Shown here: piece by piece, positions 41,477 through 64,000 of the stretch
Layout of the letters: each line of letters begins with the position of its first letter
Numbering within the stretch: the stretch's first letter is position 1
Assembly (NCBI RefSeq): GCF_011682065.1
Contig: NZ_VUYU01000004.1
Span: forward strand, 1-64,000
Direction: 5' to 3'
DNA from: Massilia rubra
GTDB lineage: Bacteria; Pseudomonadota; Gammaproteobacteria; Burkholderiales; Burkholderiaceae_D
Length of the DNA: 64,000 nt
The notes under the pieces: generated by a model
Told to the model about the DNA's origin: nothing
The model's input: only the letters and a program-made list of their open reading frames with translations
The model's database searches: none
Made by a program: the position numbers and the translations under genes

Positions 41477-42340
41477 ATGAATAAGATCCGGGGAATATTC
41501 TCCGGACCGGCAGTCAAAGTCGCGGTGATCCAGCTATGCATACTTCATAATCAAACCGAAAAGAACCTGGAAGCCGCGGTCAAGCTGATCCACGAAGCCA
41601 AACTGGCCTCGCCCGACATCGTCTGCCTGCCCGCCGCATTCGCCACCGGCTTGAACTTTCCCTCCTTGAAACGCGATGCGCAAACCATCGACGGCCCTAT
41701 CGTCACCACCCTGCGGGCGCTGGCGGCGTCGCTCGGCATTGCGCTGGTGTTCGGCTTGCTCGAACGCGACGGCAACGATATTTACGATGCGGCCGTGTAT
41801 ATAGACGAATCCGGCACAATTGCCGGGAGCTATAGAAGAAACAGTATCTGGGATGGCGAGCGCGATTATATTTCGCGCGGCGATCCGGCCCCGCTTATCG
41901 ATAGCAAGCATGGCAAGATCGGATTACTGGTAAGTTATGATGTACGTTTCCCGGAGGCATCAAGGGGGTATTTCACAGAGAATGTCGATATCATTATCTG
42001 TGTCGCCAGCCTGTTCCATATTTATGGTTTTGCAGTCGAATCTTTATGCCGCGCCAGGGCCGCCGATAATGCCTGCTATTTCGTCTTTTGCAGTTGTGTT
42101 GGTGAAAATGGTTTTGCCATGCTGGAATATATGGGTGGCAGCCTGATCGCCGATGGAACGGTGATGAAAGTCGACGAGAATCGCGAACTCGACTTGCTCG
42201 CCCGCGCAGGCCAAAGGCAGCAAATCGTGCATGCCGACCTCTTGATCCGCCGCAAAAACAAGATCGGCAAGGAACTTCCCTACAAAGCCGACTATCTCGA
42301 CAATTGGCAGCGGCCCGCGCACGGGGAATTGCAGGCATGA
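41477..42340 (+). CDS. Nitrilase-fold protein lacking the catalytic triad
   Basis: 287 residues of the carbon-nitrogen hydrolase fold, recognisable from VKVAVIQL at the start, DIVCLPAAFATG, and GLLVSYDVRFPE. All three catalytic positions differ from active nitrilases: the Glu of LPE is Ala (LPAAF), the Lys of YRK is Arg (YRRNSIW), and the Cys of CYD is Ser (VSYD). It is therefore unlikely to hydrolyse nitriles or amides by the usual mechanism. The start was placed at ATG 41477 to match the 288-residue paralogue at 46398; in-frame starts upstream to 41273 are possible. Its stop overlaps the ABC permease start. It may be a structural partner or a transferase using the fold for amide chemistry. 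Confidence 0.8.
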   Translation: MNKIRGIFSGPAVKVAVIQLCILHNQTEKNLEAAVKLIHEAKLASPDIVCLPAAFATGLNFPSLKRDAQTIDGPIVTTLRALAASLGIALVFGLLERDGNDIYDAAVYIDESGTIAGSYRRNSIWDGERDYISRGDPAPLIDSKHGKIGLLVSYDVRFPEASRGYFTENVDIIICVASLFHIYGFAVESLCRARAADNACYFVFCSCVGENGFAMLEYMGGSLIADGTVMKVDENRELDLLARAGQRQQIVHADLLIRRKNKIGKELPYKADYLDNWQRPAHGELQA

Positions 42341-43128
42341 ACGAGTTCGCGCCAAGCCGCGCCATGTCGTGCCGCTTATGGCTGATCGACCTGTACCGCC
42401 AGATCTATTGGGACATGGTGCAGTTCTTCCGCTATCGCCTGATCGTCGTCTCCACCATGCTGACCTCGGTCTCCATGGTCCTGTCCTTCGGCTTCGGCAC
42501 CTCGCACGTGCAGGCCATGGGGCAGGGCGGATCGAGCTACTTCGCCTTTGCCCTGCCCGGCATCGTGGGGGTCGGCATCATGTTCAGCTGCACCTACACC
42601 ATCGGCTACGCCTTCATCGTCGACCACAACCGCCGCGCGATGGAAGATATCGTCCTCTCGCCGCTGTCGTATGGCGGCTTTCTGCTGGGCCGCCTGATCG
42701 GGATGATGCTCAAATGCTCCCTGCAGTTCATCGCGGTCTTGCTGCTGGCGTCATGGATGTTCGGCGTCCACGTGGGCTTGCCGTGGCGCCTGCTGCTTGG
42801 CTTTGTCAGCGCCTGCCTGTTCTTCGGGGGCTTCGGCATCGTCGTGGCCTGCTTTACCAATGAAGTCTCGTTTGCCAGCGTGGTCAACCTGGTGCTGATA
42901 CCGCTGACCTATATGTGCGGCGTGTTCTTCCCGCTCGAAAATTTCGGCTCGGCCCAATCGCTGATTTCGTGGCTGCCGCTCTCGGCCCAGGTCGACGTGC
43001 TGCGCTCGGCCATTTCGGGGGCGGCCGCCACCAGTTTCGCCCATAGCGCCGGCTTGTCGCTCGTGTACGCCGTGCTCATGATGGGAGGGGCGCTGTATGT
43101 TTTCAAGCACCGTGTCACCCGCCGCTAG
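42337..43128 (+). CDS. ABC-2 type transporter permease
   Basis: 263 residues, six predicted membrane helices (e.g. LIVVSTMLTSVSMVLSFGFG; FALPGIVGVGIMFSCTYTIG; SVVNLVLIPLTYMCGVFFPL). The sequence LTYMCGVFFPLENF and the overall layout are those of the ABC-2/NodJ-DrrB class that exports drugs or polysaccharides. The start at 42337 was chosen from the four-base overlap with the upstream gene. It is followed by its ATPase, whose start lies 32 bases inside this gene, so a DrrAB-like two-component exporter is formed. It likely exports the product of this locus across the inner membrane. Confidence 0.9.
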   Translation: MNEFAPSRAMSCRLWLIDLYRQIYWDMVQFFRYRLIVVSTMLTSVSMVLSFGFGTSHVQAMGQGGSSYFAFALPGIVGVGIMFSCTYTIGYAFIVDHNRRAMEDIVLSPLSYGGFLLGRLIGMMLKCSLQFIAVLLLASWMFGVHVGLPWRLLLGFVSACLFFGGFGIVVACFTNEVSFASVVNLVLIPLTYMCGVFFPLENFGSAQSLISWLPLSAQVDVLRSAISGAAATSFAHSAGLSLVYAVLMMGGALYVFKHRVTRR

Positions 43129-44101
43129 CCTGCCAGCCGCCGTTCCGGCAGCGGGCGTGGCGCCTGTGCTGGAGGTGTGCGGCTTGCGCGCGGCGATCAA
43201 CCAGCGCTTCGCCATCGCGGGCGTCGACTTTAGCCTGGGCCGCGGCGAGACCATCGCCATCATCGGCCGCAACGGTTCGGGAAAATCGTCGCTGCTGCGT
43301 TTGCTGTCCGGCCTGGCAAGTCCGGACGCGGGAACGGTGCGCATCGCCGGCCATGCCAGCACCGACTGGAACAAGACCGCGCGCCATCTGGGACTGGTGC
43401 AGCAATCGAAGGAAATGCCGGCCCACACCACGGTCGGCGAGTATGTCTTGCAGCAGATCGACCTGCGCCGCGCGCGTCGCGACAGCGCACCGCGCTTGCT
43501 GGCCATGGCCGGCCTGAGCGATTTTCTCAAGCACGATGTGGCGGCTTTGTCAGGCGGCAACCGGCGCAAGCTGCACATCCTGTGCGCGCTGGCACACGGT
43601 CCCGACCTGCTGTTGGCCGACGAGCCTTGCGCCGGCCTCGATGCGCAGTTCCAGAGCGACGTGATCGACTATTTGAACGAGCTCAAACAGCAACTGGGCA
43701 TGAGCATGGTGATCGCCACCCATCAGCTGGAAGAAGTCGAGGCGCTGGCCGACCTGGTCGGCGTGATGGAGGGCGGGCGCCTGGTGCGCCTCGAACGGCG
43801 CAACCGGGAACACAGCGCGGACAGCCCCGCGAGCGACACATTGGCGCTCGACTTCGCCGACCGCACGCTGGTGGCGCAGCAGTGGACCCGCCTGGCCAGC
43901 CTGTTGCACGCGCTGCCTTACGTGGTCGATGCCACGCGCGAGGGCGAACGGGTGGCACTACGCTGCCGCAGCGGCGACGTGGCGCTGCTGTCGAGGACGG
44001 TCGGCGCGCTCGCCGAGCACGAAATTCATCTTCGCAACATCAAGTGGGCCGAGCCCGGAATGAAGGAATTGATTCAGGGGCGTGGCATGGGCGATCGCTA
44101 G
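43097..44101 (+). CDS. ABC transporter ATP-binding protein, DrrA-like
   Basis: 334 residues. Walker A GRNGSGKSS, Q-loop LVQQSKEM, signature LSGGNRRKL, Walker B LLLADEP, and the H-loop in VIATHQLEEV are all present. The last ~100 residues form the C-terminal extension common in drug-exporting ATPases of the DrrA/CcmA group. The N-terminal Ala/Pro-rich leader before the first strand is long, so the start may be a few codons later. It powers the ABC-2 permease encoded immediately upstream. Confidence 0.92.
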   Translation: MFSSTVSPAASLPAAVPAAGVAPVLEVCGLRAAINQRFAIAGVDFSLGRGETIAIIGRNGSGKSSLLRLLSGLASPDAGTVRIAGHASTDWNKTARHLGLVQQSKEMPAHTTVGEYVLQQIDLRRARRDSAPRLLAMAGLSDFLKHDVAALSGGNRRKLHILCALAHGPDLLLADEPCAGLDAQFQSDVIDYLNELKQQLGMSMVIATHQLEEVEALADLVGVMEGGRLVRLERRNREHSADSPASDTLALDFADRTLVAQQWTRLASLLHALPYVVDATREGERVALRCRSGDVALLSRTVGALAEHEIHLRNIKWAEPGMKELIQGRGMGDR

Positions 44102-44160
44102 CAGAGAGCAGTGCGGTCGGAATAGTGGACGGTCGTGTAGCAAACAACGAGGAGAGGCCT

Positions 44161-45480
44161 GTGATCAGCAATAACCGGGATTTGCCGTTTTGGAAAGAAT
44201 ATCCAGAGCGGGACAGCGAATGGGTTCGGCAATATCCGACCAAGCACGTTGCGGTTTCCGAAGAAGATGTGTTTCGCAAAGAGCCGATGGGCTTTTATGT
44301 CCATATCCCGTTTTGCAACCGGCTCTGTTTCAGCTGCCCCTACATCAAGCACCAGACCGACAAGAGCGTCACCCAGCGCTACGTCGATGCCTTGAAAAAG
44401 GAAATGTCGAACTATGCCGCGCGGCCGTATGTGAAAGAGCACCAGCTGACGGTCGGCTACATCGGCGGCGGCACCCCGACCGCGCTCAGCACCGAGCAAC
44501 TGGTCGACCTGCTGACCCATATGAAGGCCGAGTTCGACATGAAGCCGGGCCTGGAAATCTCCACCGAATCGACCCCGCTCGATATCTCGGAACAAAAGGC
44601 CAGCGCGCTGCTCGAGCATGGCGTGAACCGCATCAGCCTGGGCGTGCAAACCTTCATCGACCAGGAACTCGAAGACCTCGGCAGGGCCGGCAACGCGGCC
44701 ATGATCATCGATGCGATCAAGATGCTGCAACGGATCGGCGTGCCGCGCATCAATATCGACCTGATGCATGGCCTGAACGGGCAAACCATGGAAAGCTGGC
44801 ATCAAAGCCTGCAGACCGCGGTCGACCTGGGCGTCTCCAGCGTGTCCTTCTATACCTATATGGAGTTCGCCCAGATCAGCACCAAGCGGCGCAAGCTGCC
44901 GCCCGTGCCGCCGCGCGAAACAGTCGACGAGATGTTCATCTACGCCGCCGAATTCCTGACCAGGAATGGCTACGAAGGCTACTTCGGCGACTGCTTCGCC
45001 TTGCCGGGCCAGCGGCCGGCCTACGGCAGCGTCACCTGGACCGAGGAATTCCCGATCATCCCGATGGGTCCCACCGCGACCGGGCACTTGAAGGATTACT
45101 GGTATTTCAACGAACCGAGCATCGAGCTGTATATCGAGGCCGTCAATGCCGGCCGCCTGCCGATCGCCATGGGCAAGCAGATCAGCGCGGAAGAATCGCT
45201 GCGTCGCGCCGTGATGCTGGGCATCAAATCGTCGCGCCTGGACCGCCAGCGTTTTCGCGAGCTGCACGGGGTCGACTTCGCCCACCTGTTCCCGGAAGAA
45301 ATCGCCGACCTGCAAGCGAAGGGCCTGGTGCGCCTGACCGATGAGGCCATGGAAGTGGTGGGGCCGAAGGGCTGGTACTACATGGACAACATTTCCAAGG
45401 CGTTCTATTCGAAGGAATTCCGGCGCTACCCGCAACACCTGGGCGCCAATATTTCTCCCTTCATCATCAAGGCCGCCTGA
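44161..45480 (+). CDS. HemN-like radical SAM enzyme, candidate cyclopropane/methylene-forming
   Basis: 439 residues. The radical SAM cluster site is CNRLCFSC (CxxxCxxC), followed by the GGGTP motif in GYIGGGTPTAL, and the C-terminal HemN domain (ESLRRAVMLGIK, then LVRLTDEAMEVVG). True HemN proteins have a fourth cysteine after CxxC; here that position is a Pro-Tyr pair. HemN-like enzymes bind two SAM molecules and can produce a SAM-methylene radical. In CC-1065 biosynthesis C10P does so together with methyltransferase C10Q to close a cyclopropane ring, and YtkT is the yatakemycin counterpart. Here a methyltransferase gene follows after 21 bases. The GTG start at 44161 is preceded by GAGGAG. 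Coproporphyrinogen oxidation is very unlikely given the context. Confidence 0.88.
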   Translation: MISNNRDLPFWKEYPERDSEWVRQYPTKHVAVSEEDVFRKEPMGFYVHIPFCNRLCFSCPYIKHQTDKSVTQRYVDALKKEMSNYAARPYVKEHQLTVGYIGGGTPTALSTEQLVDLLTHMKAEFDMKPGLEISTESTPLDISEQKASALLEHGVNRISLGVQTFIDQELEDLGRAGNAAMIIDAIKMLQRIGVPRINIDLMHGLNGQTMESWHQSLQTAVDLGVSSVSFYTYMEFAQISTKRRKLPPVPPRETVDEMFIYAAEFLTRNGYEGYFGDCFALPGQRPAYGSVTWTEEFPIIPMGPTATGHLKDYWYFNEPSIELYIEAVNAGRLPIAMGKQISAEESLRRAVMLGIKSSRLDRQRFRELHGVDFAHLFPEEIADLQAKGLVRLTDEAMEVVGPKGWYYMDNISKAFYSKEFRRYPQHLGANISPFIIKAA

Positions 45481-45501
45481 TTCCACAAGGAGCACACCAA
45501 C

Positions 45502-46209
45502 ATGATCAATGCAACCCTCTTTGATTTGGAAAACCGTGTCCCGCAGGTCAAGCCGTTTTCATCGATCGATGAAGTCCGCAGCTACGACCTGGGCATGCGC
45601 AAGTCGGCGCTGGTGGCCTACCTGAAGCCGGCCAAGCGCATCTTGAGCTACTGCAATGACACCAACCGCGACCTGTTCGAGGTGGGTACCGGCACCGGCC
45701 TGCTGTCGCTGTATGTGGGGGGCAAGCGGCCCGAGCACATCATCTCGAGCGTCGAAGAAAACGTCACCCTGCTGGAGGTGGCGGAAGAAAACCTGAGCCT
45801 GAGCGTCTGGTGCACCGCGCCGAGCAATATCGAGTTCGAGCTGTGCAAACTGCACAAGTTTCCCTTTGCGAATGCGAGCGCCGATATCGTCTACTCGTTT
45901 TCTTCCATGCATTTGTGGAAAAAGCCGGTCGAGACCCTCAAGGAGATCAGCCGCATCTGCAAGCCGGGCGGCGTGGTGCTGCTGTTCGACACCAACCGCC
46001 ATGCGGAAGAGGGGCATATCACCTTCGTGCTGCAATTCGTCAAGGAAGGCGCGAACGAGTTCATGGATTCGCTGCGCGCCTCCTACAGCCCGCGCGAGGT
46101 CAAGGACTTGCTGGCCCAGGCCGGGCTGTCCGAGTGGCGCGTGTATGAGGACGAACTGGGCCTGGTGGTGTCCTCGGTGGTGCTGGACGACCTGGAGGAA
46201 TGCCCGTGA
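45502..46209 (+). CDS. Class I SAM-dependent methyltransferase, partner of the HemN-like enzyme
   Basis: 235 residues with a Rossmann methyltransferase core: motif I LFEVGTGTGLLSLYVG, an acidic loop at the next strand (SSVEEN), and a post-motif ISRICKPGGVVLLFDTN typical of small-molecule methyltransferases. The GTGTG glycine loop should bind SAM. It is encoded 21 bases after the HemN-like enzyme and ahead of a 62-codon gene whose start overlaps its stop. By analogy with C10Q in CC-1065 biosynthesis, it may resolve a SAM-methylene adduct made by the radical SAM enzyme into a cyclopropane. Ordinary O-, N- or C-methylation of a pathway intermediate is the alternative. Confidence 0.87.
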   Translation: MINATLFDLENRVPQVKPFSSIDEVRSYDLGMRKSALVAYLKPAKRILSYCNDTNRDLFEVGTGTGLLSLYVGGKRPEHIISSVEENVTLLEVAEENLSLSVWCTAPSNIEFELCKLHKFPFANASADIVYSFSSMHLWKKPVETLKEISRICKPGGVVLLFDTNRHAEEGHITFVLQFVKEGANEFMDSLRASYSPREVKDLLAQAGLSEWRVYEDELGLVVSSVVLDDLEECP

Positions 46210-46388
46210 ACGACCGCGCCCAGACCGTGGAGCAAGCCATCGTCGCTTGCTTCGAGAAAGTCCTGGCGGCGTTCGGATCGAGCTTCGCCCTGATGTACTT
46301 CGGACCGGAATGGTTCTACACCGATGACGACGGGCGCGACCCGCCGCCGCCTGTGGCCCCCGTTCCGCACGACAACCGCCTACACTGA
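46200..46388 (+). CDS. Small 62-residue protein, unknown
   Basis: The start ATG 46200 overlaps the methyltransferase stop by ten bases; a GTG at 46206 is an alternative. The sequence has an N-terminal amphipathic helix (QAIVACFEKVLAAFGSSFA), an aromatic segment (YFGPEWFY), an acidic patch (DDDGRD) and a proline-rich, His-ended tail. It ends 9 bases before the next start. Codon use and position support a real gene, perhaps an accessory subunit. A ribosomal peptide precursor is conceivable because two radical SAM genes are near, but there is no leader/core motif or protease to support it. Confidence 0.6.
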   Translation: MPVNDRAQTVEQAIVACFEKVLAAFGSSFALMYFGPEWFYTDDDGRDPPPPVAPVPHDNRLH

Positions 46389-46397
46389 GACCGCCCT

Positions 46398-47264
<867 letters not shown>

Positions 47265-47275
47265 CCAGGCCCATC

Positions 47276-48799
47276 ATGCGAATTCTCTTGATCTCAACCA
47301 ACAAGATCCGTGTGCCGCGGCCTGCGCTCCCGATCGGGGTCGCCTACATCAGCGCGGCCCTGAAGGCGGCCGGCCACGAGGTCCACATGCTCGACTTGCT
47401 GTGGGAGCCGCGCGAACTGAAGGCGGTGCTGTCGACCTTGCAGGAAATCAAGCCCGACGTGGTCGGCATCGCCATCCGCAATCTCGACAACCTCACCTTC
47501 ATCGATCCGGTGTTCTTCGGCCCGATCACGCACAAGATCGTGCAGTGCGTGCGCAAGTACTCGACGGCCTACGTGGTCATGGGCGGCAGCGGCTTTTCGG
47601 TCGAGCCGAAAGACATGTTCCAGTACGCGCGTCCCGATTTCGGCATCGCGGGGGAGGGCGAGGATGCGATTGTCGAATTGCTGGACTATCTGCAGACCGG
47701 CAAAGGCAGCCTGACCACCATCTCCGGGCTGTGCTACATCGATCCGACCACCGGCTACTTCCACCAGAACCCGACCCTGGGCAAGGTCAATGTCAAGCTG
47801 CTCGTACCCGACCGCAGCATCTACGATCCGCGCTACTTCGAGGAAACGGTGGCCGCCGCCACCGATCTCACCCGCGACTACCAGCCGGCCATCGAAACCC
47901 TGCAAACCAAGCGCGGCTGCAAGCTGCATTGCTCGTACTGCATCATCAAGAAGACCGAGGGGCGCGGCAACCGCTTCAAGGACCCGCGCGAAGTGGTGGA
48001 AGAAATCCGCATTGCAATGGTGACCAACCCGATGGTGCGCGAATTCGAAATCGTCGACGCCACCTTCAACTATCCGCTCGACTATGCCATGGAAGTGTGC
48101 GAAGAAATCGTGCGCGCCGAGCTGAACGTGCCCTGGTACTGCCAGCTCACCCCGAATGCGATCACGCCCGAGTTCGTCAACCTGCTGGAACGGGCCGGCT
48201 GCATCCGGGTCGACCTGGGCACCGATTCGTTCTCGGACGCCTCGCTGGAACAGTTGATGAAGGGCTTCGACATGGCCAAGGTGGTCGAAGTCGACCAGCT
48301 TTTGCAAAAAAGCAAGGTTGAATTCACCCATTGCGTGTTCCTCGGCGGCCCCGGCGAGGGCTCGCGCGAATTGCGCGAGTCGGTGCTGGCCCCGACCAAG
48401 TACCTCAAGCCGAACCAGATCTACGCCAACCTGGGCATCCGCATCCTCAGCGACACCAAGCTGCAGCGTATCGCGGTGAAGAATGGCTTGATCGAAGAAG
48501 ACCACAATATGTTCATTCCCACCTTCTACGTCGAGCCGGAGTTGCTGGAAGACCCGGCCACCCTCACGTTTGTCCGCGATATGTACTTGCAAAACAAGAA
48601 CTGGTATCTGTGGTGGGGCTTGAAGGGCCAGGATCTGTACCAGCGCAGCAGGGAAACCATCAAGCGCGTCGACGACATGCACAAGGAATACCGGCACGCG
48701 ATGCAGGGCGTCGAGCCGCTGATCCTGCCGCCGGTCAAGGCGCCGATCGCGACCCAGGTGCGCTTCATGCCGATGCCCCAGCAGGCGCCGGCGGCATGA
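47276..48799 (+). CDS. Cobalamin-binding-type radical SAM protein
   Basis: 507 residues. The N-terminal ~140 residues form a B12-binding-like Rossmann domain (MRILLISTNK; PDVVGIAIRN; YVVMGGSGFSV) and are followed by a radical SAM domain with KRGCKLHCSYC (CxxxCxxC) near residue 215. The DxHxxG cobalamin motif is not seen, so the cofactor may be bound base-off without it or be absent. This class performs C-methylation at unactivated carbon, ring contraction or similar chemistry. The gene's stop overlaps the glycosylase start. It probably tailors an aromatic or peptide intermediate made in this operon. Confidence 0.85.
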   Translation: MRILLISTNKIRVPRPALPIGVAYISAALKAAGHEVHMLDLLWEPRELKAVLSTLQEIKPDVVGIAIRNLDNLTFIDPVFFGPITHKIVQCVRKYSTAYVVMGGSGFSVEPKDMFQYARPDFGIAGEGEDAIVELLDYLQTGKGSLTTISGLCYIDPTTGYFHQNPTLGKVNVKLLVPDRSIYDPRYFEETVAAATDLTRDYQPAIETLQTKRGCKLHCSYCIIKKTEGRGNRFKDPREVVEEIRIAMVTNPMVREFEIVDATFNYPLDYAMEVCEEIVRAELNVPWYCQLTPNAITPEFVNLLERAGCIRVDLGTDSFSDASLEQLMKGFDMAKVVEVDQLLQKSKVEFTHCVFLGGPGEGSRELRESVLAPTKYLKPNQIYANLGIRILSDTKLQRIAVKNGLIEEDHNMFIPTFYVEPELLEDPATLTFVRDMYLQNKNWYLWWGLKGQDLYQRSRETIKRVDDMHKEYRHAMQGVEPLILPPVKAPIATQVRFMPMPQQAPAA

Positions 48800-49524
48800 G
48801 GCACGCGGCCATCATCGCCGAGCTGGAAAGCGCACTGCAGGCGAACGCGTCGGCGCAGCTGGCGCTCTCCCTGCAGCGCTACTTTCCCGAGCCGATCAGC
48901 GCGCTGGGCGTATCGAACACCGAGGTGGTGAAAATCGCCGCCCAGGCGTTCGCGCGCCATGCCGCGCTCTCGCCCGACGAATGGCTGGCGCTGGCCGATC
49001 ATTTCGCGCACTCGCATGCGTATCACGAGCATTTCATCCTGGCCTCGGCGCTGGTGGCGAAAGTGGCGCCCGGCCTGGACGACGAAGGACGGCTGCTGGA
49101 CCGCTTCCAGGCCTGGCTGGAGGCCGACGTGAGCAACTGGGCGCAGTGCGACGACCTGTGCATCAAGCCGCTCTACGTTTACCTCAAGCGCCGTCCGCAC
49201 TTGCTGGAACGGATTTACGCCTGGGGCCAGTCCGACAGCCCGTGGTGCCGCCGGGCGTCGAACGTGGCCCTGGTCAAATTCGTGGGCCGCAGCGAGAATT
49301 TTGATCTTGAACAGATGTTCGCCAACTGCAAGCGCCTGCTGGCCGATGGCGACCCCTACGTGCAAAAAGGGATCGGCTGGATGCTGAAGGTGGCCAGCCA
49401 GTACGAATTGCAGCCGGTACTGGCCTTCGTGCGCAAGCACTTGTCGCTGATGGAGCGCCCGACCCTGCGCTATGCCATCGAAAAGCTGCCGGCCGAGATG
49501 CGGCGCACCTTCACCCAAGCTTGA
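48796..49524 (+). CDS. AlkD-family DNA glycosylase, predicted self-resistance
   Basis: 242 residues, all-helical HEAT-like fold. By alignment to Bacillus AlkD the three catalytic residues are kept: Trp115 and Asp119 in NWAQCD (AlkD W109/D113) and Trp195 in YVQKGIGW (AlkD W187). Other family blocks are PWCRRASNVAL and the final arginine/lysine-rich helix. AlkD removes bulky or cationic alkyl-purines without base flipping. In the CC-1065 and yatakemycin producers the AlkD-type glycosylases C10R5 and YtkR2 protect the host by excising the drug-adenine adduct. The ATG at 48796 overlaps the radical SAM stop by four bases. Its place inside the operon argues for dedicated self-protection and not general repair. 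Confidence 0.9.
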   Translation: MRHAAIIAELESALQANASAQLALSLQRYFPEPISALGVSNTEVVKIAAQAFARHAALSPDEWLALADHFAHSHAYHEHFILASALVAKVAPGLDDEGRLLDRFQAWLEADVSNWAQCDDLCIKPLYVYLKRRPHLLERIYAWGQSDSPWCRRASNVALVKFVGRSENFDLEQMFANCKRLLADGDPYVQKGIGWMLKVASQYELQPVLAFVRKHLSLMERPTLRYAIEKLPAEMRRTFTQA

Positions 49525-56548: not shown

Positions 56549-56584
56549 CGGGTAGCGACACGGGTAGCGACGCGGGTCGCGATG
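56549..56584 (+). repeat. Three 12-bp tandem repeats downstream of the ferredoxin gene
   Basis: The unit CGGGTAGCGACA occurs three times in a row with small changes (last copy CGGGTCGCGATG). It lies in the 104-base gap between the ferredoxin and the TDO-like gene, the largest gap inside the second half of the operon. It could affect mRNA processing or be a slippage relic. Confidence 0.6.
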
Positions 56585-56631
56585 AAGTGGCGCCAGGCGG
56601 GCGCGATTGATGTGAAACCGGGAGAGTAGCG

Positions 56632-58095
56632 ATGATGGAAACGAATACCAGCTTTGCCAACGGCGCCGCGCAGGCGAATGCACTCGGGGCGATCGCCGAG
56701 AGCTACGATGTGCTGCATAATCTTGCCACCCTGTCGCAGGCGCGCCACGTCAGCGACGTCGTGGCCGGCACGCGCAACTCCGCGCTGCATGCGGTGTTCC
56801 AGGCGGCCGAGATCGCGCTGCTGAACCTGGTGCGCCTGACCCGGCGCGCCACCAAAGCCTTGCAGGAAGACGACTTGCAGCGCGCTACCGAAGTGATGCG
56901 CTGGGTGCATGGCTTTCACCTGGTCATGCGCCGCCTGGGCGACGTGCCCAAGCAGATTCATCTGATGTGCCGCGATCCGGCGGCGACGCGCAAGATCGGT
57001 ATCGCCGAGTCGCCCGCCATGGCCGAGTTCCTGGCGGCGTCCGAAGCGCTGGAGCTGCAAGTGAACCGCTTTTTCGACGAGCGCGGCGCCGCACCGGGCG
57101 GACGCGGCATGACGCAAACGGTGGGTCTCGGCCGCCATACCGATCTCGACTATGCCTTGCTGAACCTGGCGCGCTCCTCGGCCCACGAGATGGTGTACTG
57201 GGAAGCGAACCTGAACGAGGTCGTGGTCGAGCTCGACGATCGCGACTTCGACCAGTTCGTGGCGTCCGGCTTGCTGGGCAAGGCGGTCATGGAGTCGCAA
57301 TTGCAGGCCGAAACCTGCTACACCGAGTTCGTCGCCCTGCACCAGGTGCCCGAAATCCTCAGTTGCGAGGCGAACGACCATATCGACCATGCGGTGCGCG
57401 ATATCCGCGCCGGGCGCTATTCGCAGGCGACCGAACGGCTGCAGGTGGCCAGCACGCTGTTGCCGGCCATGGTGCAGGCGCAGCAAGTGATGGGCGATTG
57501 CCTGTCGGCCAACGACTACCATATCTTCCGCGACAACCTGGGCCCGGCCAGCGGCATGCATTCGCTGTCGATCCGCTATCACATGCTGCGCGACCTGTTC
57601 ACCTCGCTCTGGGGCGAGCTGGAAACCCACTTCAGCGGGTCCGGCTTCGCCTCGCTCGAGGCCGCCGTCGAACATGTGGACCTGGGGCGTCATGACAGCG
57701 CCCACAACTGGCAGTTGCACAACCTGCTCAACGCGGCGTTTCGCCTGTACGACCTGATCGAGGCCTGGCGCCATGAGCACCTGCACATGCCGCGCAACTG
57801 TCTGGGCGGGGGCGGCACCAAGTCCATGATCGGCGTGCCGGATGGCCTCTTGACGGTCAAGCGCATGCGCGAGGGCGCCAACGCCCTGGCCTCGCTCAAC
57901 CGCCTGCACCGCGCGCGCGGCGTGGTGGCCGGACCCGGTGCGGGCGGCGTGCTGTCCAGGCATGTCGGTCGCGCCGATTCGCTCGACCAGCGCCTGCTGC
58001 GCGCGACCGGGGCCTTTACGCGCGACCAGTTTCCTCATGTACAAGAAAAGGAAACCTGCCCGTTCAGCCGCAAGGACCCCGCGCGCCGTCCTTAG
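56632..58095 (+). CDS. Tryptophan 2,3-dioxygenase-superfamily heme protein
   Basis: 487 residues of the TDO superfamily. The C-terminal signature AWRHEHLHMPRNCLGGGGTK aligns with the FRHxxxVxRxIGxxxGTGG of TDO, placing the proximal heme ligand at His383. Another shared block is FRDNLGPASGMHSL, matching the FRxxLxPxSGxxS substrate region. The catalytic-site His of HQAYELW is a Phe in FQAAEIA (Phe56), so classic ring-opening of tryptophan is not assured. Related enzymes include PrnB and heme-dependent aromatic hydroxylases. It lies with a TrpB2 gene at the window edge and an HpaB-type hydroxylase next door. It probably oxidises an indole, tryptophan or tyrosine-derived intermediate. Confidence 0.78.
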   Translation: MMETNTSFANGAAQANALGAIAESYDVLHNLATLSQARHVSDVVAGTRNSALHAVFQAAEIALLNLVRLTRRATKALQEDDLQRATEVMRWVHGFHLVMRRLGDVPKQIHLMCRDPAATRKIGIAESPAMAEFLAASEALELQVNRFFDERGAAPGGRGMTQTVGLGRHTDLDYALLNLARSSAHEMVYWEANLNEVVVELDDRDFDQFVASGLLGKAVMESQLQAETCYTEFVALHQVPEILSCEANDHIDHAVRDIRAGRYSQATERLQVASTLLPAMVQAQQVMGDCLSANDYHIFRDNLGPASGMHSLSIRYHMLRDLFTSLWGELETHFSGSGFASLEAAVEHVDLGRHDSAHNWQLHNLLNAAFRLYDLIEAWRHEHLHMPRNCLGGGGTKSMIGVPDGLLTVKRMREGANALASLNRLHRARGVVAGPGAGGVLSRHVGRADSLDQRLLRATGAFTRDQFPHVQEKETCPFSRKDPARRP

Positions 58096-58121
58096 GCCAG
58101 GAGTCCAAGGCCGCAGCTCCG

Positions 58122-59711
58122 ATGTCAAACAACGCGATCAGCAAAGACAACATGACAGCCAACTTATCGGATTACCGCGTCGACTACCGCGCCGGCGGGA
58201 GCAATATGGAGTACCGGCACAATCTGCACATGCACAAGGCTGCGGGCGTACACAGCGGCGCGTCCTTCGTTGCCAGCCTGGGCGACGAGCGCGAGGTCTG
58301 GTATGACGGCCAGCGGGTCGATGTGCGCACCCACCCGGCCTTTGCCGGCGTGTTGCGCGAGCTGGGACGCCTGTACGACCTGCAGCACAGCGACGCCCAT
58401 CACAAGGATATGACCTGGACTTCCCCCCAGACGGGTCATCCGGTCAGCCTGTCCTACCTGGCGCCGAGCACGCCTGCCCAGTTTGCGGCCAAAACCCGCA
58501 ACAGCCATCTGTGGATGGAGCACAGCCACGGCCAGTTGCCGCGCATTCCAGACTTTGTCGCCAATGTCGTGGTCGGCTTGTACGATTACCGCCACGAGCT
58601 GGGCAAGGTCGATCCGCAATTCGCGCGCAACGCCGAAAACTACTATCTGTACTGCCGCGAGCACGATATCGCGCTCACCCATGCCATCGGCGACCCGCAG
58701 ATCGACCGCTCGGCCTCGCTGGCCGAGCATCCGGACAATGCCTTGCGCATCGTCGAACGGCGCGCCGACGGGGTGGTGGTGCGTGGCGCCAAGCAGTTGG
58801 CCACGCTGGCGCCGTACTGCCATGAAGTGATGGTCTACCTGTCGCCCGCCTTCTTCATGCGCAGCGCGCCCGAGTATGTGATCTGGTTCGCGCTGCCGAT
58901 CGCCACGCCGAACCTGCGCCTGATGTGCCGCGAATCGCAAACCGAGCACCGCAACAGCTTCCGCCACGACCTGTCGTCGCGCTATGACGAGCAGGACGCC
59001 ATGCTGTTCTTCGACGATGTGTTCATCCCCAACCACCGCATCTTCCTGCTCGACGATTGCCAGGCGGCGGCGGCCGGCTTTGCGCGCATCAGCGCCTGGG
59101 CCTTGTACGTGGGGCAGATCCGCTTCTACCATCGGCTGCGCACCTTCCTCGGCGTGGCCGCGCTGGCCAGCAAAGCCATCGGGGTCAAGGATTTCCGCGA
59201 GATCGGCGACCAGCTCGGCGAACTGACCTCGTACGTGGAAATGGTCCGGCTGGCCATCGTCGGCCTGCAAAACGAGCTCAGGCCGACCAGTGGCGGCCAC
59301 CTCGCACCCGGCGTCACCCTGGCGCTGGACGCCTTTGCGGCCCAGGTCTCGGCGCGCGTGGCCCAGATCGTGCGCGTGGTGTGCGGTTCCGGCCTGGTGA
59401 TGCAGCCGAGCGAGGCCGACCTGGCCAATCCGGTGCTGCGCCCGCTGCTCGAACGCTACATGGGCGGCAAGGATGTGGACGTCGTGTTCAAGTCGCGCCT
59501 GTTCCGCCTGGCCACCGAACTGGTGAGCGACCGCTACGGGATGCGCCAGGAATTGTACGAAATGTGGAACCGCGGCGACATCGTGCGCAACCGGATTGCC
59601 CTGTTCGAGAGCTATCCCGGGCGCGCCGGCATCGAAGCGAACATCGTCGCGCTGCTCGACGGCGCCAGCGCCGCCCTGCAAGCGGCCCACCCCGTCCCGG
59701 AGTCCACATGA
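58122..59711 (+). CDS. HpaB-type FADH2-dependent aromatic hydroxylase
   Basis: 529 residues, 4-hydroxyphenylacetate 3-hydroxylase family. The N-terminal block is DMTWTSPQTGHPVSLSYL, followed by HSHGQLPRIPDF, the substrate-loop stretch DNALRIVERRADGVVV and the acyl-CoA dehydrogenase-like C-terminal helices. These enzymes hydroxylate phenols ortho to an existing OH using FADH2 and O2, so a reductase partner (HpaC-like) is expected; none is in the window. It would set up an ortho-dihydroxy or quinone-type ring on the product. Its ATG is 26 bases past the previous stop, and its stop overlaps the ABC ATPase start. Confidence 0.88.
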   Translation: MSNNAISKDNMTANLSDYRVDYRAGGSNMEYRHNLHMHKAAGVHSGASFVASLGDEREVWYDGQRVDVRTHPAFAGVLRELGRLYDLQHSDAHHKDMTWTSPQTGHPVSLSYLAPSTPAQFAAKTRNSHLWMEHSHGQLPRIPDFVANVVVGLYDYRHELGKVDPQFARNAENYYLYCREHDIALTHAIGDPQIDRSASLAEHPDNALRIVERRADGVVVRGAKQLATLAPYCHEVMVYLSPAFFMRSAPEYVIWFALPIATPNLRLMCRESQTEHRNSFRHDLSSRYDEQDAMLFFDDVFIPNHRIFLLDDCQAAAAGFARISAWALYVGQIRFYHRLRTFLGVAALASKAIGVKDFREIGDQLGELTSYVEMVRLAIVGLQNELRPTSGGHLAPGVTLALDAFAAQVSARVAQIVRVVCGSGLVMQPSEADLANPVLRPLLERYMGGKDVDVVFKSRLFRLATELVSDRYGMRQELYEMWNRGDIVRNRIALFESYPGRAGIEANIVALLDGASAALQAAHPVPEST

Positions 59712-60412
59712 CCATTCTCAACGTGCGCGATGTCAGCAAATGCTACCGTCTCGGCCGGGTGCCGGTGCCAGCCGTGCGCAACGTCAGCTTCAGTATTGCC
59801 GACGCCAGCTTCAGCGTGCTGACCGGACCTTCCGGCTCCGGCAAGACCAGCTTGCTCAACCTGATCGGCTGCCTGGACCGGCCCGACAGCGGCAGCATCG
59901 AGATTGCCGGCACGCAGGTCGGCAAGCTGGCCGAAAAGGCGCTGACCACCTTCCGCCGCCAGCATCTTGGCTTCGTGTTCCAGAACTTTAACCTGCTGGC
60001 GGCCCTGACGGTGGCGGAGAACATCGCCTATCCGCTGCAACTGGCAAAACAGGGCGCCGCCGCGCGCAAGGAGCGGGTCGCCTTCCTGCTCGACGCGGTG
60101 GGCCTGAACGGCAAGGATGGGCGCCGGCCGCACGAACTGTCGGGCGGCGAACGCCAGCGCGTGGCGATCGCGCGCGCCCTGGCGGCGCGTCCGCGCCTGG
60201 TGCTGGCGGACGAACCCACCGCCAGCCTGGACCGCGCTACCGGCGCCCAGATCGTCGCGCTCATGCGCAGGCTGCAGCGCGAGCACGGCGTGTCGTTCCT
60301 GTTCGCCTCGCACGACACATCGCTCATCGCCGGGGCCGATACGGTGATCAATCTGCGCGACGGCGCCTTGCAGGCGCGCGCCGCCGGCATCGACCAACTG
60401 GTGGAAGCATGA
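59708..60412 (+). CDS. ABC transporter ATP-binding protein, MacB/LolD-like
   Basis: 234 residues. Walker A GPSGSGKTS, Q-loop FVFQNFNLL, signature LSGGERQRVAIARAL, Walker B LVLADEPTASLD and the H-loop ASHDTSL are all intact. This is the ATPase of the FtsX-type transport class (MacB, LolD), which drives mechanotransmission rather than a channel. ATG 59708 overlaps the hydroxylase stop. Together with the next three genes it forms an envelope-spanning set distinct from the ABC-2 exporter at 42337-44101. Confidence 0.93.
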   Translation: MTILNVRDVSKCYRLGRVPVPAVRNVSFSIADASFSVLTGPSGSGKTSLLNLIGCLDRPDSGSIEIAGTQVGKLAEKALTTFRRQHLGFVFQNFNLLAALTVAENIAYPLQLAKQGAAARKERVAFLLDAVGLNGKDGRRPHELSGGERQRVAIARALAARPRLVLADEPTASLDRATGAQIVALMRRLQREHGVSFLFASHDTSLIAGADTVINLRDGALQARAAGIDQLVEA

Positions 60413-61806
60413 GCGCGCTGGCTTTGGCGGCGCGCAATGTCTGGCGCAACGGGCGGCGTTCGCTGTCCACCTTCCTCACCATGACGGTCGGGGTCTGTGC
60501 GCTGCTGTTGCTGGGCGCCTATGTGCAAACGGTGGACCAGGGCTTGCAGACGAACTTCGTGCGCCATGGCGGCCACCTGGAGATCCAGCACCGCGACTTC
60601 CTGCTGTACGGCGACGGCAACCCGGCCGCCTATGGACTGGCCGATTACCAGCGCATCATCGATGCGGTGCGCAGCGACCCCCAGTTGCGCGCCCAGGTGC
60701 TGGTGATTACGCCATCGCTCAGGCTGGGCGGCATTGCGGGCAACGCCAGCGCCAACGTGTCGCGCACGGTGTTCGGGCGCGGCACCCTGGTGGACGACCA
60801 GAACCGCATGCGCGCCTGGAATGCCTACGGCTTGCCGATCAAGCCGGGCAACCTGGCCCTGCAAGGATCGCCGCCGAACGCGGCTGTGATCGGCACCGGC
60901 GTGGCGCGCGTGCTGCGCCTGTGCGGAGCGCTGGCGGTGCCGGACTGTCCGCCCCCGGTCGAGGCGGGCGCGGCCGGCGGCGCGGCGCAGCCGGCCGGAC
61001 TGGCCGCACTGAGCGAACTGAGCCAGCCGGCCAAGCGCACGGCGATGGACGCCGCAGTCCCCGTCATCCAGTTGCTGACGGCGGGCGAGACGGGCGCGCC
61101 GAACGTGGCCGACCTGAACGTGGTCAAGGCGCAGAGCCAGGGCGTCAAGGAGCTCGACGATGGCTGGATCGAACTGCACCTGGCGCGCGCCCAGCGCCTG
61201 GTGTACGGCGAGGCGGCGCCACGGGCCACCTCGCTGGTGGTGCAGCTCGACACGACCGCCAACCTGGCAGCGGCGCGCGAACGGATCGCCGCCATCCTCG
61301 CACGCGACTTCAAGGGCGAGCAGCTCACCGTGCTCGGCTTCGACACGATCAACCCTTCGTACGGGCAAATACTGGGCATGTTCGGGGCGCTGTTCGGTTT
61401 CGTCGCCTTGCTGTTCAGTTGCGTCGTGCTGTTCTCGGTCGCCAATTCGGTGAACATGGCGGTGGCCGAGCGTACGGTCGAAATCGGCACCTTGCGCGCC
61501 ATCGGCATGCAGCGCGGCGCGATTGCCGCCGTCTTCGTGTGGGAGGCACTGCTGCTGGGCCTGGCCTGCGCGGTGGCCGGGCTGCTGCTCGCGCTGGGGA
61601 TCGCCTACGCGGTCAATCATGCGGGCATGAGCTGGCTGCCGCCGGGCACGGTCGAGCCGCAAGTGATTTCGGTCGGCTTGTGGGGCGAGTACAAGATCAT
61701 CGCCAACGCGGTACTGACCTTGCTCATCGTGTCGCTGCTGGCCGCATGGTGGCCCGCGCGCCGCGCCGGGCGCCTGCCCATCGTCGATTCGCTGCGCCAT
61801 GTGTGA
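60409..61806 (+). CDS. FtsX-family ABC permease
   Basis: 465 residues. One helix near the N-terminus (FLTMTVGVCALLLLGAYVQ), a large periplasmic domain, and three helices at the C-terminal end (MFGALFGFVALLFSCVVLFS; AAVFVWEALLLGLACAVAGL; ANAVLTLLIVSLLAAW) match the MacB/LolCE topology. The C-terminal motif ERTVEIGTLRAIGMQRG is characteristic. It works with the preceding ATPase on a periplasmic substrate such as a lipoprotein, a hydrophobic drug or an outer-membrane component. Confidence 0.92.
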   Translation: MSALALAARNVWRNGRRSLSTFLTMTVGVCALLLLGAYVQTVDQGLQTNFVRHGGHLEIQHRDFLLYGDGNPAAYGLADYQRIIDAVRSDPQLRAQVLVITPSLRLGGIAGNASANVSRTVFGRGTLVDDQNRMRAWNAYGLPIKPGNLALQGSPPNAAVIGTGVARVLRLCGALAVPDCPPPVEAGAAGGAAQPAGLAALSELSQPAKRTAMDAAVPVIQLLTAGETGAPNVADLNVVKAQSQGVKELDDGWIELHLARAQRLVYGEAAPRATSLVVQLDTTANLAAARERIAAILARDFKGEQLTVLGFDTINPSYGQILGMFGALFGFVALLFSCVVLFSVANSVNMAVAERTVEIGTLRAIGMQRGAIAAVFVWEALLLGLACAVAGLLLALGIAYAVNHAGMSWLPPGTVEPQVISVGLWGEYKIIANAVLTLLIVSLLAAWWPARRAGRLPIVDSLRHV

Positions 61807-62584
61807 GCGACGCACCGTCTTGGCCTGGGCGCTGCTGGCCGCGTGCGCACCGGCGCGGGCCGGCGCGCCGGACGCCAACCTGCTGCTGGCCCAGAGCGAC
61901 GCGATCCGCAACCCGGTCCAGCCGTTTGCCGTCGATGTGCGCCTGACCGAGTACCGTGCCGGCAAGCAGACCGATGAAAGCAGCCTGAACATCTACGCCA
62001 AGATCGATGGCGCAAGCGGCCAGTACCGCAACCTGGTGCGCTTCGCGCGCCCGCTGCGCGACGCCAACAAGCTGATGCTGGTCAATGGCAGCGACATGTG
62101 GTTTTTCGACCCGTCGAGCCGGGCCGCGGTGCGCATCTCGCCGCAGCAACGCTTGCTTGGCAGGGCGTCCAGCGGCGACGTGGTCACGGCCAACCTGGCG
62201 CGCGACTACCGTGCGGAGCTCGTTGGCGACGAACAGATCCAGGACGGCGATGTGCAGGCGCGCCAGTGCACCTTGCTGAACCTGGCCGCGCATACCAGAC
62301 AGGCCAACTATCACCGGGTGCGACTGTGGCTCGACAGTGCCAGCCGCCATCCGGTCAAGGCCGAGTACTACAGCGGCAGCGGGCATTTGCTCAAGACCGT
62401 GTTCTACCGGCGTGCCCAGCGCGTGCTCGGCGAGCTGCGCCCGACCGAAGCGGTGATCATCGATGGCGCGGACACCAGCTGGATCACGGTGATGGATTTT
62501 TCCGGCTACGTGGGGCGCGAGATTCCCGATTCCTGGTTCCAGCGCGACTACCTGCCGCGTTTCAGGCTGGAGCGCGATACGTGA
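61799..62584 (+). CDS. LolA-like outer-membrane lipoprotein-sorting family protein
   Basis: 261 residues. A signal peptide (VLAWALLAACAPARA) is followed by a domain with LNIYAKIDGASGQYRNLVRF and KLMLVNGSDMWFFDPSS, the beta-sheet pattern of the LolA-like outer-membrane lipoprotein-sorting family. The start overlaps the permease end by 8 bases. It is presumably a periplasmic carrier that takes substrate from the FtsX-type transporter to the outer membrane. I cannot say whether it carries lipoprotein or the natural product. Confidence 0.82.
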   Translation: MCERRTVLAWALLAACAPARAGAPDANLLLAQSDAIRNPVQPFAVDVRLTEYRAGKQTDESSLNIYAKIDGASGQYRNLVRFARPLRDANKLMLVNGSDMWFFDPSSRAAVRISPQQRLLGRASSGDVVTANLARDYRAELVGDEQIQDGDVQARQCTLLNLAAHTRQANYHRVRLWLDSASRHPVKAEYYSGSGHLLKTVFYRRAQRVLGELRPTEAVIIDGADTSWITVMDFSGYVGREIPDSWFQRDYLPRFRLERDT

Positions 62585-63747
62585 TGCGGCGCGCTTGCGC
62601 CCTGGCGCCCGCCATGCTGGCGTGCTGCGCCGCCTCGCACGCTGGCCAGGCCGGTGCGCCATGGGCCACCTCGCTCGAACTCGAAGCGGGCTTGCGCGCA
62701 GCGCAGCCGGGCGCCCGGCGCACTACGCGCCTGTCGGTCGACGTGAGCGGGGAGCACCAGTTCAGCCCCGACTGGCGCTTCAAGCTGGCCGACCGCTTCG
62801 AGCACTTCGGGGGGACGGAACGGCGCTCGGTCAATACAGTCAAGGATGCCTACCTGAGCTGGAACGCGAGCGCCGAAAGCGCCATCGATCTCGGGCGCGT
62901 CAACCTGCGCCAGGGTGTCGCCGCCGGCTACAACCCGAGCGACTACTTTCGCGCGCGGGCGGTGCGCTCGGTGGTCTCGGTCGACCCGGAGACGCTGCGC
63001 CGCAGCCGCAGTGGCACCTATCTGGTGCAGGGGCAGCGCGTGTGGGATGGCGGCTCGGTGAGCGCGGTGCTGGCGCCGCGCATCGGTGACGACGACGGCG
63101 GCAACACCAACGCCCGCGGCCGCGCGATGCTCGTTGGCAGCGTGCGGCTGGCGCCCGACTTCCAGCCGCAGGCGCTGCTGTTGCTGGAAGAGGGCGAAGC
63201 GCCGCAGCTTGGCCTGAATCTGTCGACCCTGCTCGGTGACGCCCTGACCGCGCATGCGGAATGGTCGGGCGGGCGGCAGCGCGACTTGTTGTCGCGCGCG
63301 CTGGGCGGGCAGGGTGGGCGGGCCTGGCGCAACCGCCTGGCGGCGGGCGCTACCTATACCGCCGGCAACCGGATGTCGTTCACGGCCGAGGTCCACTGGT
63401 GCGGGGCCGCGCTCGACAGGGAGCAGTGGGCCGGCCTGGCACGCCAGCCCGCACAGTATTGGGCGTATCGCGATTTCGTGCGGCGCGAGCAGGAGCCGCC
63501 GACCCGCAAGGGCCTGTTCGCCATGCTGGTCTGGCCCGATGCGCTGCGCCCGAGGCTGGACCTGAGCGCGGTGGCGAAACACGACTTGCAGGATGGCAGT
63601 TCGCTGCTGTGGTCGGAAGCACGCTGGCGGCTCGATGAAGTCGACGTCGCCTTGCAATGGACGCATGTGCGCGGCGGCGCCTGGGACCAGTACGCGGCCC
63701 ACGGCGAACGCAATAGCTGGCGCCTGCTGGCGCAATGGTATTTATAG
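62584..63747 (+). CDS. Predicted outer-membrane beta-barrel protein
   Basis: 387 residues from ATG 62584. After a signal peptide (ALAPAMLACCAASHA) the sequence alternates aromatic and polar residues in short strands (WRFKLADRFEHFG; AAGYNPSDYFRARAVRSVV; GRAMLVGSVRLAPDF; RWRLDEVDVALQWTHVRGG), ending in a terminal strand with the final aromatic/hydrophobic pattern (SWRLLAQWYL) of barrels. The family is often encoded beside MacB-like ABC and LolA-like genes. It likely completes an export or membrane-maintenance route for this locus. A porin or siderophore-receptor-like role is possible, but no plug domain is seen. Confidence 0.7.
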   Translation: MRRACALAPAMLACCAASHAGQAGAPWATSLELEAGLRAAQPGARRTTRLSVDVSGEHQFSPDWRFKLADRFEHFGGTERRSVNTVKDAYLSWNASAESAIDLGRVNLRQGVAAGYNPSDYFRARAVRSVVSVDPETLRRSRSGTYLVQGQRVWDGGSVSAVLAPRIGDDDGGNTNARGRAMLVGSVRLAPDFQPQALLLLEEGEAPQLGLNLSTLLGDALTAHAEWSGGRQRDLLSRALGGQGGRAWRNRLAAGATYTAGNRMSFTAEVHWCGAALDREQWAGLARQPAQYWAYRDFVRREQEPPTRKGLFAMLVWPDALRPRLDLSAVAKHDLQDGSSLLWSEARWRLDEVDVALQWTHVRGGAWDQYAAHGERNSWRLLAQWYL

Positions 63748-63764
63748 CTGACAAGGGGAAGGTG

Positions 63765-64000
63765 ATGAGCGTAAAACAGTGCCTGGAATACCGGTTGACC
63801 GAGGAGCAGCTTCCTGCGCAGTGGTACAACTTTCTGCTGGACTTGCCGAAGGCCTTGCCGCCGGTCGAGGATGTGCACGTGCCGCCCTCGGCCGAGATCA
63901 TGGCCAGGATCCGGCCGGCGGAACTGTTGCGCCAGAATGCGCCGAGCGAGCAGTGGGTGGATATTCCGGCGCCAGTGCGCCAGCGCCTGCTGCAAGTGGG
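63765..64000 (+). CDS. trpB2: TrpB2-type tryptophan synthase beta chain, 3' end outside the window
   Basis: The first ~78 residues are present. LPAQWYNFLLDLPKALPP, then PAELLRQNAPSEQWVDIP and VRQRLLQVG, match the N-terminus of the TrpB2 family (PLP-dependent, converts indole and serine to tryptophan, TIGR01415 type) rather than standard TrpB. AAGGGGA precedes ATG 63765, 17 bases after the previous stop. As the last gene seen in the operon it points to an indole- or tryptophan-related precursor, or a beta-substitution reaction with another nucleophile. The catalytic lysine lies beyond the window. Confidence 0.85.
   Translation, partial: MSVKQCLEYRLTEEQLPAQWYNFLLDLPKALPPVEDVHVPPSAEIMARIRPAELLRQNAPSEQWVDIPAPVRQRLLQV

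Follow-up and report, generated by a model that had tools for sequence, protein, structure and literature searches.

The first 64,000 nucleotides of contig NZ_VUYU01000004.1 of Massilia rubra (in the following termed the window; window and contig base numbers are identical) carry from base 41477 onwards a run of 28 genes, all on the plus strand, which extends to the end of metK at contig base 75175, i.e., 11 kb past the window. With a probability of roughly 0.84, this run constitutes a complete gene cluster, probably a working one, that directs the formation of a CC-1065-type DNA alkylator with a spirocyclopropane (cyclopropylcyclohexadienone) group, a reading that is based on its gene content, on homology, on conserved catalytic residues and on conservation across three phyla. 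A preceding sequence-only reading had listed a HemN-like radical S-adenosylmethionine (SAM) enzyme, a methyltransferase, an AlkD-type glycosylase, a UvrA-like protein, a PaaK-like ligase, two BtrH-type acyltransferases, an HpaB hydroxylase and two exporters, all of which are indeed present on the plus strand; it had not mentioned a tryptophan-dioxygenase-like protein, a B12-binding radical SAM protein and two CN-hydrolases, which the run encodes as well. The genes in the window are the following:

41477..42340, +, nit1, CN-hydrolase 1, first cluster gene (PF00795, E 1.8e-36); also the first matched gene in the Massilia genomes G002 and G467
42337..43128, +, abcM, membrane subunit of an ABC-2 type exporter (PF01061, E 3.2e-15)
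43097..44101, +, abcA, ABC exporter ATPase (PF00005, E 5.1e-30)
44161..45480, +, hemN, HemN-like radical SAM enzyme, 439 amino acids (aa) from the chosen GTG, candidate C10P equivalent (Radical_SAM, E 8.3e-20; HemN_C; CNRLCFSC at residues 52-59)
45502..46209, +, mt1, SAM methyltransferase, candidate C10Q equivalent (E60/H137, 77 residues apart)
46398..47264, +, nit2, CN-hydrolase 2 (PF00795, E 4.9e-41)
47276..48799, +, B12-binding radical SAM enzyme, candidate C-methyltransferase (PF02310 and PF04055)
48796..49524, +, alkD, AlkD-type DNA glycosylase (PF08713, E 2.9e-44; W115/D119/W195)
49552..50649, +, btrH1, BtrH-type acyltransferase 1 (PF14399, PF16169)
50664..53243, +, uvrA, UvrA-like part of the fusion gene 50664-53861 (by alignment with the genome's own housekeeping UvrA)
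53244..53858, +, orphan part of the same fusion gene (conserved H-E-H-E)
53854..54909, +, btrH2, BtrH-type acyltransferase 2 (PF14399, E 2.8e-32)
54906..56258, +, paaK1, PaaK-like adenylating ligase 1
56632..58095, +, tryptophan-dioxygenase-like protein (TIGR03036, E 2.2e-11, and PF03301, E 3.3e-7, both under their cut-offs)
58122..59711, +, hpaB, HpaB-type flavin hydroxylase, candidate for the step from tyrosine to dihydroxyphenylalanine (DOPA) (PF11794, E 2.8e-79; TIGR02309, E 7.1e-93, under its cut-off)
59708..60412, +, second ABC exporter ATPase (PF00005, E 2.9e-32)
60409..61806, +, FtsX/MacB-like permease (PF02687, E 1e-15)
61799..62584, +, LolA-like outer-membrane lipoprotein-sorting protein (PF17131, E 5.2e-33)
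62584..63747, +, protein judged by eye to be outer-membrane-like, with a start resembling a signal peptide (the longer open reading frame (ORF) 62098-63747, in which it is contained, has no Pfam match)

The sequence-only reading had advised extending the sequence past base 64000 for the remaining genes, and the reading was continued to base 80000 of the contig (404,518 bases in a genome of 7.57 Mb), where the run goes on as follows:

63765-65057, +, TrpB-like pyridoxal-phosphate enzyme, crossing the window end at 64000 (NF009057, 541.6 bits, cut-off 366; TIGR01415, 481.5 bits, under its cut-off of 518.85)
65054-66112, +, btrH3, third BtrH
66091 or 66109 to 68199, +, bis-molybdopterin guanine dinucleotide molybdenum enzyme (molybdopterin oxidoreductase)
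68147-68878, +, mt2, second methyltransferase
68888-70198, +, paaK2, second PaaK
70195-71121, +, nit3, CN-hydrolase
71141-71932, +, nit4, CN-hydrolase
71925-73079, +, MfnA-type tyrosine decarboxylase (TIGR03812, 382.8 bits, cut-off 299.4)
73135-73938, +, fatty-acid-hydroxylase-like gene
73970-75175, +, metK, SAM synthetase

The TrpB-like, MfnA-type and molybdenum enzyme genes found past the window support the DNA alkylator that had been proposed. Of the 27 neighbouring gene pairs 14 overlap, with a largest gap of 373 bp (starts as chosen), and neither polyketide synthase (PKS) nor nonribosomal peptide synthetase (NRPS) genes are contained in the cluster. While a minus-strand block forms the left flank, the right border was set at metK because the next gene, at contig 75232-76377, is unmatched in the stretches around the cluster in both other Massilia genomes, G002 and G467.

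Relatives and distribution

The genome_contigs collection (84,980 species) was scanned with the HemN protein by way of six 8-residue patterns, at least one of which had to be matched exactly, so that only near relatives could be found. The scan yielded 11 loci, termed family A (HemN identity of about 63% or more): two in other Massilia, namely M. mucilaginosa (100% in the scan table, 99.8% in a further comparison) and Massilia sp. BJB1822 (95%), one in Myxococcus dinghuensis (68%), seven in Streptomyces (63-65%) and one in a fragment of a metagenome-assembled genome of the Nocardioidaceae (63%); the gene set is thus not confined to one betaproteobacterium, homologous clusters being found in other Massilia, in Myxococcus and in Streptomyces. 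Six family A clusters were read over their length (that of the window and those of G002, G467, G468, G469 and G475), and all six have in common the orphan domain and 21 genes, namely nit1, abcM, abcA, hemN, mt1, nit2, the B12 radical SAM gene, btrH1, uvrA, btrH2, paaK1, the dioxygenase-like gene, hpaB, the trpB-like gene, btrH3, the molybdenum enzyme gene, mt2, paaK2, nit3, nit4 and the decarboxylase gene. That these occur together in six clusters from three phyla argues against a chance grouping, and as far as the comparison with its relatives goes the cluster is probably complete. Of the six, only the clusters from Massilia, three in number, show matches to the second ABC ATPase, the FtsX-like permease, the LolA-like and outer-membrane-like proteins, the fatty-acid-hydroxylase-like protein and metK. 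Same-order matches of 76-99.8% identity run through the clusters of the two other Massilia genomes, and the proteins of the non-Massilia clusters are about 33-74% identical to those of the window.

In Streptomyces, the genus of G469, 11 of 392 genomes have a HemN match at E <= 1e-50. Five of these belong to family A (G469, G472, G473, G475 and G824), one is of another kind (G604, 31% identity), and five form a distant set with a HemN identity of 38-40%, termed family B. The family B stretches comprise 40 kb each in G572, G586 and G644, 15 kb in G610 (the length of its contig) and 21.5 kb in G588, where the contig ends beside hemN. Ten gene families are common to family A and the three 40-kb family B stretches (hemN, mt1, nitrilase, paaK, btrH, decarboxylase, trpB-like, molybdenum enzyme, orphan and alkD), the molybdenum enzyme gene of G572 being cut by the stretch end. 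For the dioxygenase-like gene, hpaB and the ABC-2 exporter no match was found at E 1e-4 in these three stretches, and the B12 radical SAM gene has a match in G572 and G586 and none in G644. Family B stretches also contain genes for a 3-dehydroquinate-synthase-like (L045:8320-9429), a TatD/amidohydrolase-like (L045:10981-11898) and a xylose-isomerase-like TIM-barrel protein (L044:9760-10632), which are not among the annotated family A genes, no search for them having been made there.

With its own genome counted, the HemN type occurs in 1 of 369 genomes of the class (E 1e-60) and, at E 1e-70, in 1 of 398 genomes of the phylum Pseudomonadota and 2 of 17 of the genus. A widespread housekeeping block, the counter-explanation considered alongside the sequence-only reading, is refuted by this distribution and practically negligible as an alternative; also, the genome holds separate UvrA and AlkD copies outside the cluster. 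The plasmid collection contains no close relative (three records, best identity 31%). The scattered occurrence in three phyla suggests that the cluster has been transferred horizontally.

The same patchiness, with only two of 17 genus genomes carrying the HemN type, might also be expected of a silent or degenerate island inherited without a working product, and it is in line with such an island, and against an active cluster, that no regulator was recognised among the 28 genes and no sigma-70-like promoter was found when sought at 40800-42000. However, all 28 reading frames are open, and together with the conserved gene order and high identity in two other Massilia genomes this suggests selection, so that an island of this kind appears highly improbable.

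Affiliation to the CC-1065 and yatakemycin types

Published data were drawn from PMC6050322, PMC8626424, PMC5684135, PMC7028382 and PMC9570651, and it is by published lengths and residues, not by sequences, that likeness to C10P and YtkT was judged. The c10P fragment of 1.37 kb corresponds to about 457 aa; eight Streptomyces HemN of family A have 457-460 aa and the five of family B 499-506 aa (lengths from script-picked starts, the start in the window having been chosen separately). In C10Q, D61 within DxGxNxG and H138 have been described (PMC6050322). All five family A methyltransferase rows have an acidic residue followed 77 residues on by a histidine (E61/H138 in both Streptomyces, D58/H135 in Myxococcus and E60/H137 in the two Massilia), whereas the position of the histidine is taken by A or P in all five methyltransferases of family B.

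With respect to AlkD, the residues F22, S25 and A40 of C10R5 have T, G and R as counterparts in YtkR2, whose Arg42 has been named (PMC8626424). By alignment, the AlkD of the window has L22, S25, S40, K161 and Q202 where C10R5 has F22, S25, A40, K159 and R205, and it does not show the T/G/R42 signature of YtkR2. In the Streptomyces AlkDs of family A, as far as their rows extend over these positions, the first is F, the second R or N and the third G or A; the AlkD of Myxococcus has V, S and T. T, G and R as in YtkR2 are found in the AlkDs of G644 and G610, at 37/40/55 in script numbering; with the GTG (G644) or ATG (G610) 13 codons on taken as the start, these numbers turn into 24/27/42. The AlkD gene of G644 lies within the cluster and that of G610 on a different contig than its hemN. 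Judged by HemN length, the C10Q histidine and the AlkD residues, family B would include the yatakemycin type, and the CC-1065 type would be placed more fittingly in family A, with exceptions at single residues. The assignment of family B to the CC-1065 type, initially considered for its GyrI genes, was overturned by these same three features. Of the CC-1065/yatakemycin logic that had been invoked for the locus, the CC-1065 part therefore fits better and the yatakemycin part less so.

The ten gene families shared with the three 40-kb family B stretches, amongst them that of the yatakemycin-like G644, would also be compatible with a product of the yatakemycin/duocarmycin type, having a different subunit order and no pyrrole C-methyl group. 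Given that the AlkD of the window lacks the YtkR2 signature, that its methyltransferase has the histidine missing from family B and that the G644 stretch gave no match to the B12 radical SAM gene, such a product is considered unlikely.

Phylogenetic reconstructions agree with the CC-1065-type reading in part. In the HemN tree, family A forms one clade (100/100) and family B another (94/99), and family A groups with these GyrI-bearing Streptomyces clusters, apart from eight coproporphyrinogen-oxidase-like HemN rows. In the AlkD tree, family A likewise forms a single clade (100/99); its nearest neighbours are one AlkD copy each from G572 and G586, which have two (89/91), and it is separate from five chromosomal AlkDs, which form a clade of their own (97/94). 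The placement relative to C10P/YtkT and YtkR2/C10R5 on which the sequence-only reading depends is answered only in part by these trees: the grouping of HemN is weakly supported, and AlkD, though separate from the chromosomal copies, does not group with the YtkR2-like AlkDs.

Putative self-protection genes

In line with the sequence-only reading, all three catalytic residues of AlkD are kept, W115, D119 and W195 aligning with W109, D113 and W187 of Bacillus cereus AlkD as named in PMC8626424. A search of solved structures with the single AlkD sequence gave no match at E 1e-3; a profile search gave one.

The UvrA of the cluster is 40% identical to the housekeeping UvrA of the genome over 807 aligned positions, but it is devoid of about 124 residues that would follow the first ATP-binding part and precede a cysteine-rich stretch, which we take to be the place of the UvrB-binding domain. 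By this alignment it can be classed as class II-like, with a predicted loss of the UvrB-binding region and the remaining UvrA kept. Its C-terminal 205 residues constitute the orphan domain, which has an ORF to itself in those clusters of Myxococcus, Streptomyces and family B that were read. Six copies that were scanned gave no Pfam match at E <= 1, and an H-E-H-E set is kept in all nine aligned copies from the nine family A and B clusters compared. These residues had prompted a comparison with VOC/glyoxalase proteins, which gave hhalign probabilities of at most 13% against seven of the genome's eight VOC hits (L100 excluded).

A GyrI-like hydrolase is a resistance feature and not a biosynthetic one. 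It is conceivable, if rather doubtful, that family A represents a spirocyclopropane branch of its own in which GyrI hydrolysis is replaced by a paired repair and drug-handling module of AlkD, a UvrB-independent UvrA and the H-E-H-E orphan protein as a metal-dependent component. In such a branch the orphan protein would bind, close or open the alkylator, and its fusion to UvrA in Massilia would mark it as a protein of drug handling and not of scaffold building.

A number of observations weigh against a CC-1065-type cluster as proposed here. The GyrI-like gene, which both c10 and ytk have, is present in all five family B stretches and absent from all six family A clusters, the sole match in the Massilia rubra genome lying on another contig. 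In addition, alkD is missing from one of the six family A clusters, that of Streptomyces sp. NRRL B-1347 (G469), and G588, placed together with G610 by the HemN tree, gave no AlkD match at all. Residues and lengths also diverge: the HemN of the window, of Massilia sp. BJB1822 and of Myxococcus is, with 439 aa, shorter than C10P; D61 of C10Q is E in four of the five family A rows and the N of its motif is G in both Massilia rows; R205 of C10R5 is unmatched and Lys159 only approximately matched; and the position of S25 is R or N in the Streptomyces of family A. The separation of families A and B from the coproporphyrinogen-oxidase-like rows has a support of only 70/90 with long branches, the unrelated-looking G604 falls on the cluster side of the HemN tree, and except for the one copy each of G572 and G586 the family B AlkDs, the YtkR2-like ones included, fall outside the neighbourhood of family A. 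The comparison with C10P and YtkT by published features instead of sequences counts here as well, and so does the fact that in the open-access literature searched, which lacks most subscription journals, no product is reported from the cluster-bearing strains; nor was a paper on the Massilia or Myxococcus clusters found there.

As to gene arrangement, btrH1 directly follows the B12 radical SAM gene in the NRRL B-1347 cluster, which retains uvrA, and the G586 and G572 stretches each have two AlkD genes of different clades as well as GyrI-like genes.

Outside the cluster, a separate NRPS locus at 84-19406 of the window comprises a C-A-T protein (84-3236), an ORF of 4586 aa (3229-16989), an aminotransferase and an Ldh_2-type dehydrogenase. 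It is followed at about 20602-40891 by a mostly minus-strand block, type VI secretion-like by eye, including a Ser/Thr kinase (25299-26297) and an FHA-domain protein (26559-27566); 9 of the 11 ORFs scanned had no Pfam match. Beyond the cluster, the gene at contig 75232-76377 codes for a TP_methylase-fold protein with a C-terminal tail, presumably resembling borosin alpha-N-methyltransferases as judged by eye, and that at 76390-78093 for a protein ending in a run of TTDV repeats.

Proposed route and comparison with known systems

The route proposed for CC-1065 leads from tyrosine to DOPA and via cyclisation, serine coupling, decarboxylation and renewed cyclisation to units that are assembled before cyclopropanation by the HemN-like enzyme and its methyltransferase (PMC9570651). 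Both c10 and ytk include a putative catechol dehydroxylase, which CC-1065 formation requires, and among characterised relatives such dehydroxylases are nearest to acetylene hydratase (PMC7028382). As far as can be told from their sequences, HpaB, the TrpB-like, MfnA-like and molybdenum enzymes, the PaaK and BtrH proteins and the HemN/methyltransferase pair of the Massilia cluster together fit this published route. The best solved relative of the molybdenum enzyme is acetylene hydratase (2e7z, E 2e-79), suggestive of a catechol dehydroxylase type, and the TrpB-like and MfnA-like enzymes, which score over curated cut-offs, are candidates for serine coupling and decarboxylation, respectively.

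The reactions, their order, the enzyme assigned to each step and the product are what we infer from this fit. HpaB would convert tyrosine to DOPA, which might cyclise to a dihydroxyindole-type acid, perhaps with the help of the dioxygenase-like protein; the TrpB-like enzyme would then add the serine carbons to the ring, and decarboxylation by the MfnA-type enzyme would be followed by closure of the second pyrrole. One catechol hydroxyl might be removed by the acetylene-hydratase-like molybdenum enzyme, with C-methyl and O-methyl groups coming from the B12 radical SAM enzyme and methyltransferase 2. The tricyclic units would be activated by the PaaK-like ligases and amide-joined by the BtrH-type proteins without NRPS modules, and in the final step the HemN-like enzyme would add a methylene group from SAM and methyltransferase 1 close the cyclopropane via its conserved histidine. 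Self-protection would be provided by AlkD, excising the alkylated adenine, along with the UvrA devoid of the UvrB-binding region and two ABC exporters.

Other enzymes of the HemN-like kind act as methylases, and two solved structures were matched, that of HemN and that of the methyltransferase NocN; the HemN/methyltransferase pair might therefore merely methylate an aromatic ring, with AlkD and UvrA guarding against some other alkylating or intercalating product, since UvrA-like proteins such as DrrC protect producers of intercalators, too. However, methyltransferase 1 retains the histidine reported for ring closure, and the TrpB-like, MfnA-like and molybdenum enzymes jointly match the CC-1065 scaffold route, which makes ring methylation alone quite improbable when set against a CC-1065-type product.

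CC-1065 and its relatives act as strong alkylators against tumours, antibody-drug conjugates built on duocarmycin have reached clinical trials (PMC9570651), and several scaffold-building steps of the family remain proposals. Comparison of the Massilia, Myxococcus and Streptomyces clusters defines core genes (those in the A and B stretches), genes of the family A branch (hpaB, the dioxygenase-like gene, uvrA and the ABC-2 exporter) and host additions (further export genes and metK), and it singles out the Pfam-less orphan protein kept in all nine clusters compared. These clusters also offer Gram-negative hosts for genetics.

A Gram-negative host is as such no novelty, contrary to what had been supposed for this locus: a cryptic cluster of Shewanella woodyi ATCC 51908, published in 2018, is described as highly homologous to c10, its Swoo_2002 can stand in for C10P both in vivo and in vitro, and the same source mentions "several other cryptic BGCs" (biosynthetic gene clusters) (PMC6050322). 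The Shewanella woodyi cluster is not among the 11 family A loci; provided that its genome is in the collection, it has none of the six 8-residue patterns, which is a weak sign against near kinship. The OmcA/MtrC family was found in 9 of the 369 class genomes, and none of the five compared with solved structures was Shewanella-like.

With the family B clusters, the yatakemycin-like one included, the Massilia cluster shares the core of ten gene families as read in the three 40-kb stretches, whereas family B differs by its GyrI-like genes, the longer HemN and the lack of the methyltransferase histidine. Its UvrA is reminiscent of the daunorubicin protein DrrC, in which the UvrA core is likewise kept and the UvrB-binding region missing; in contrast to DrrC, it carries the C-terminal orphan fusion, is encoded beside AlkD and resides in a cluster without PKS or NRPS genes. 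With c10 of Streptomyces zelensis NRRL 11183, the Massilia cluster has in common the HemN-like enzyme paired with a methyltransferase bearing the catalytic histidine, the molybdenum dehydroxylase-type enzyme, the tyrosine/serine scaffold logic and an AlkD glycosylase numbered the same at 22/25/40. It differs from c10, known here by published descriptions and not by a gene list, so that c10 may hold more of these genes, in its host, in lacking the GyrI-like hydrolase (C10R6; YtkR7 in ytk), in its additional ABC, FtsX and LolA-like export genes, in metK and in the fusion of UvrA to the orphan domain. The Massilia cluster is probably a further member of the CC-1065-type clusters, with a resistance layout of its own and a product predicted to be of the same type.

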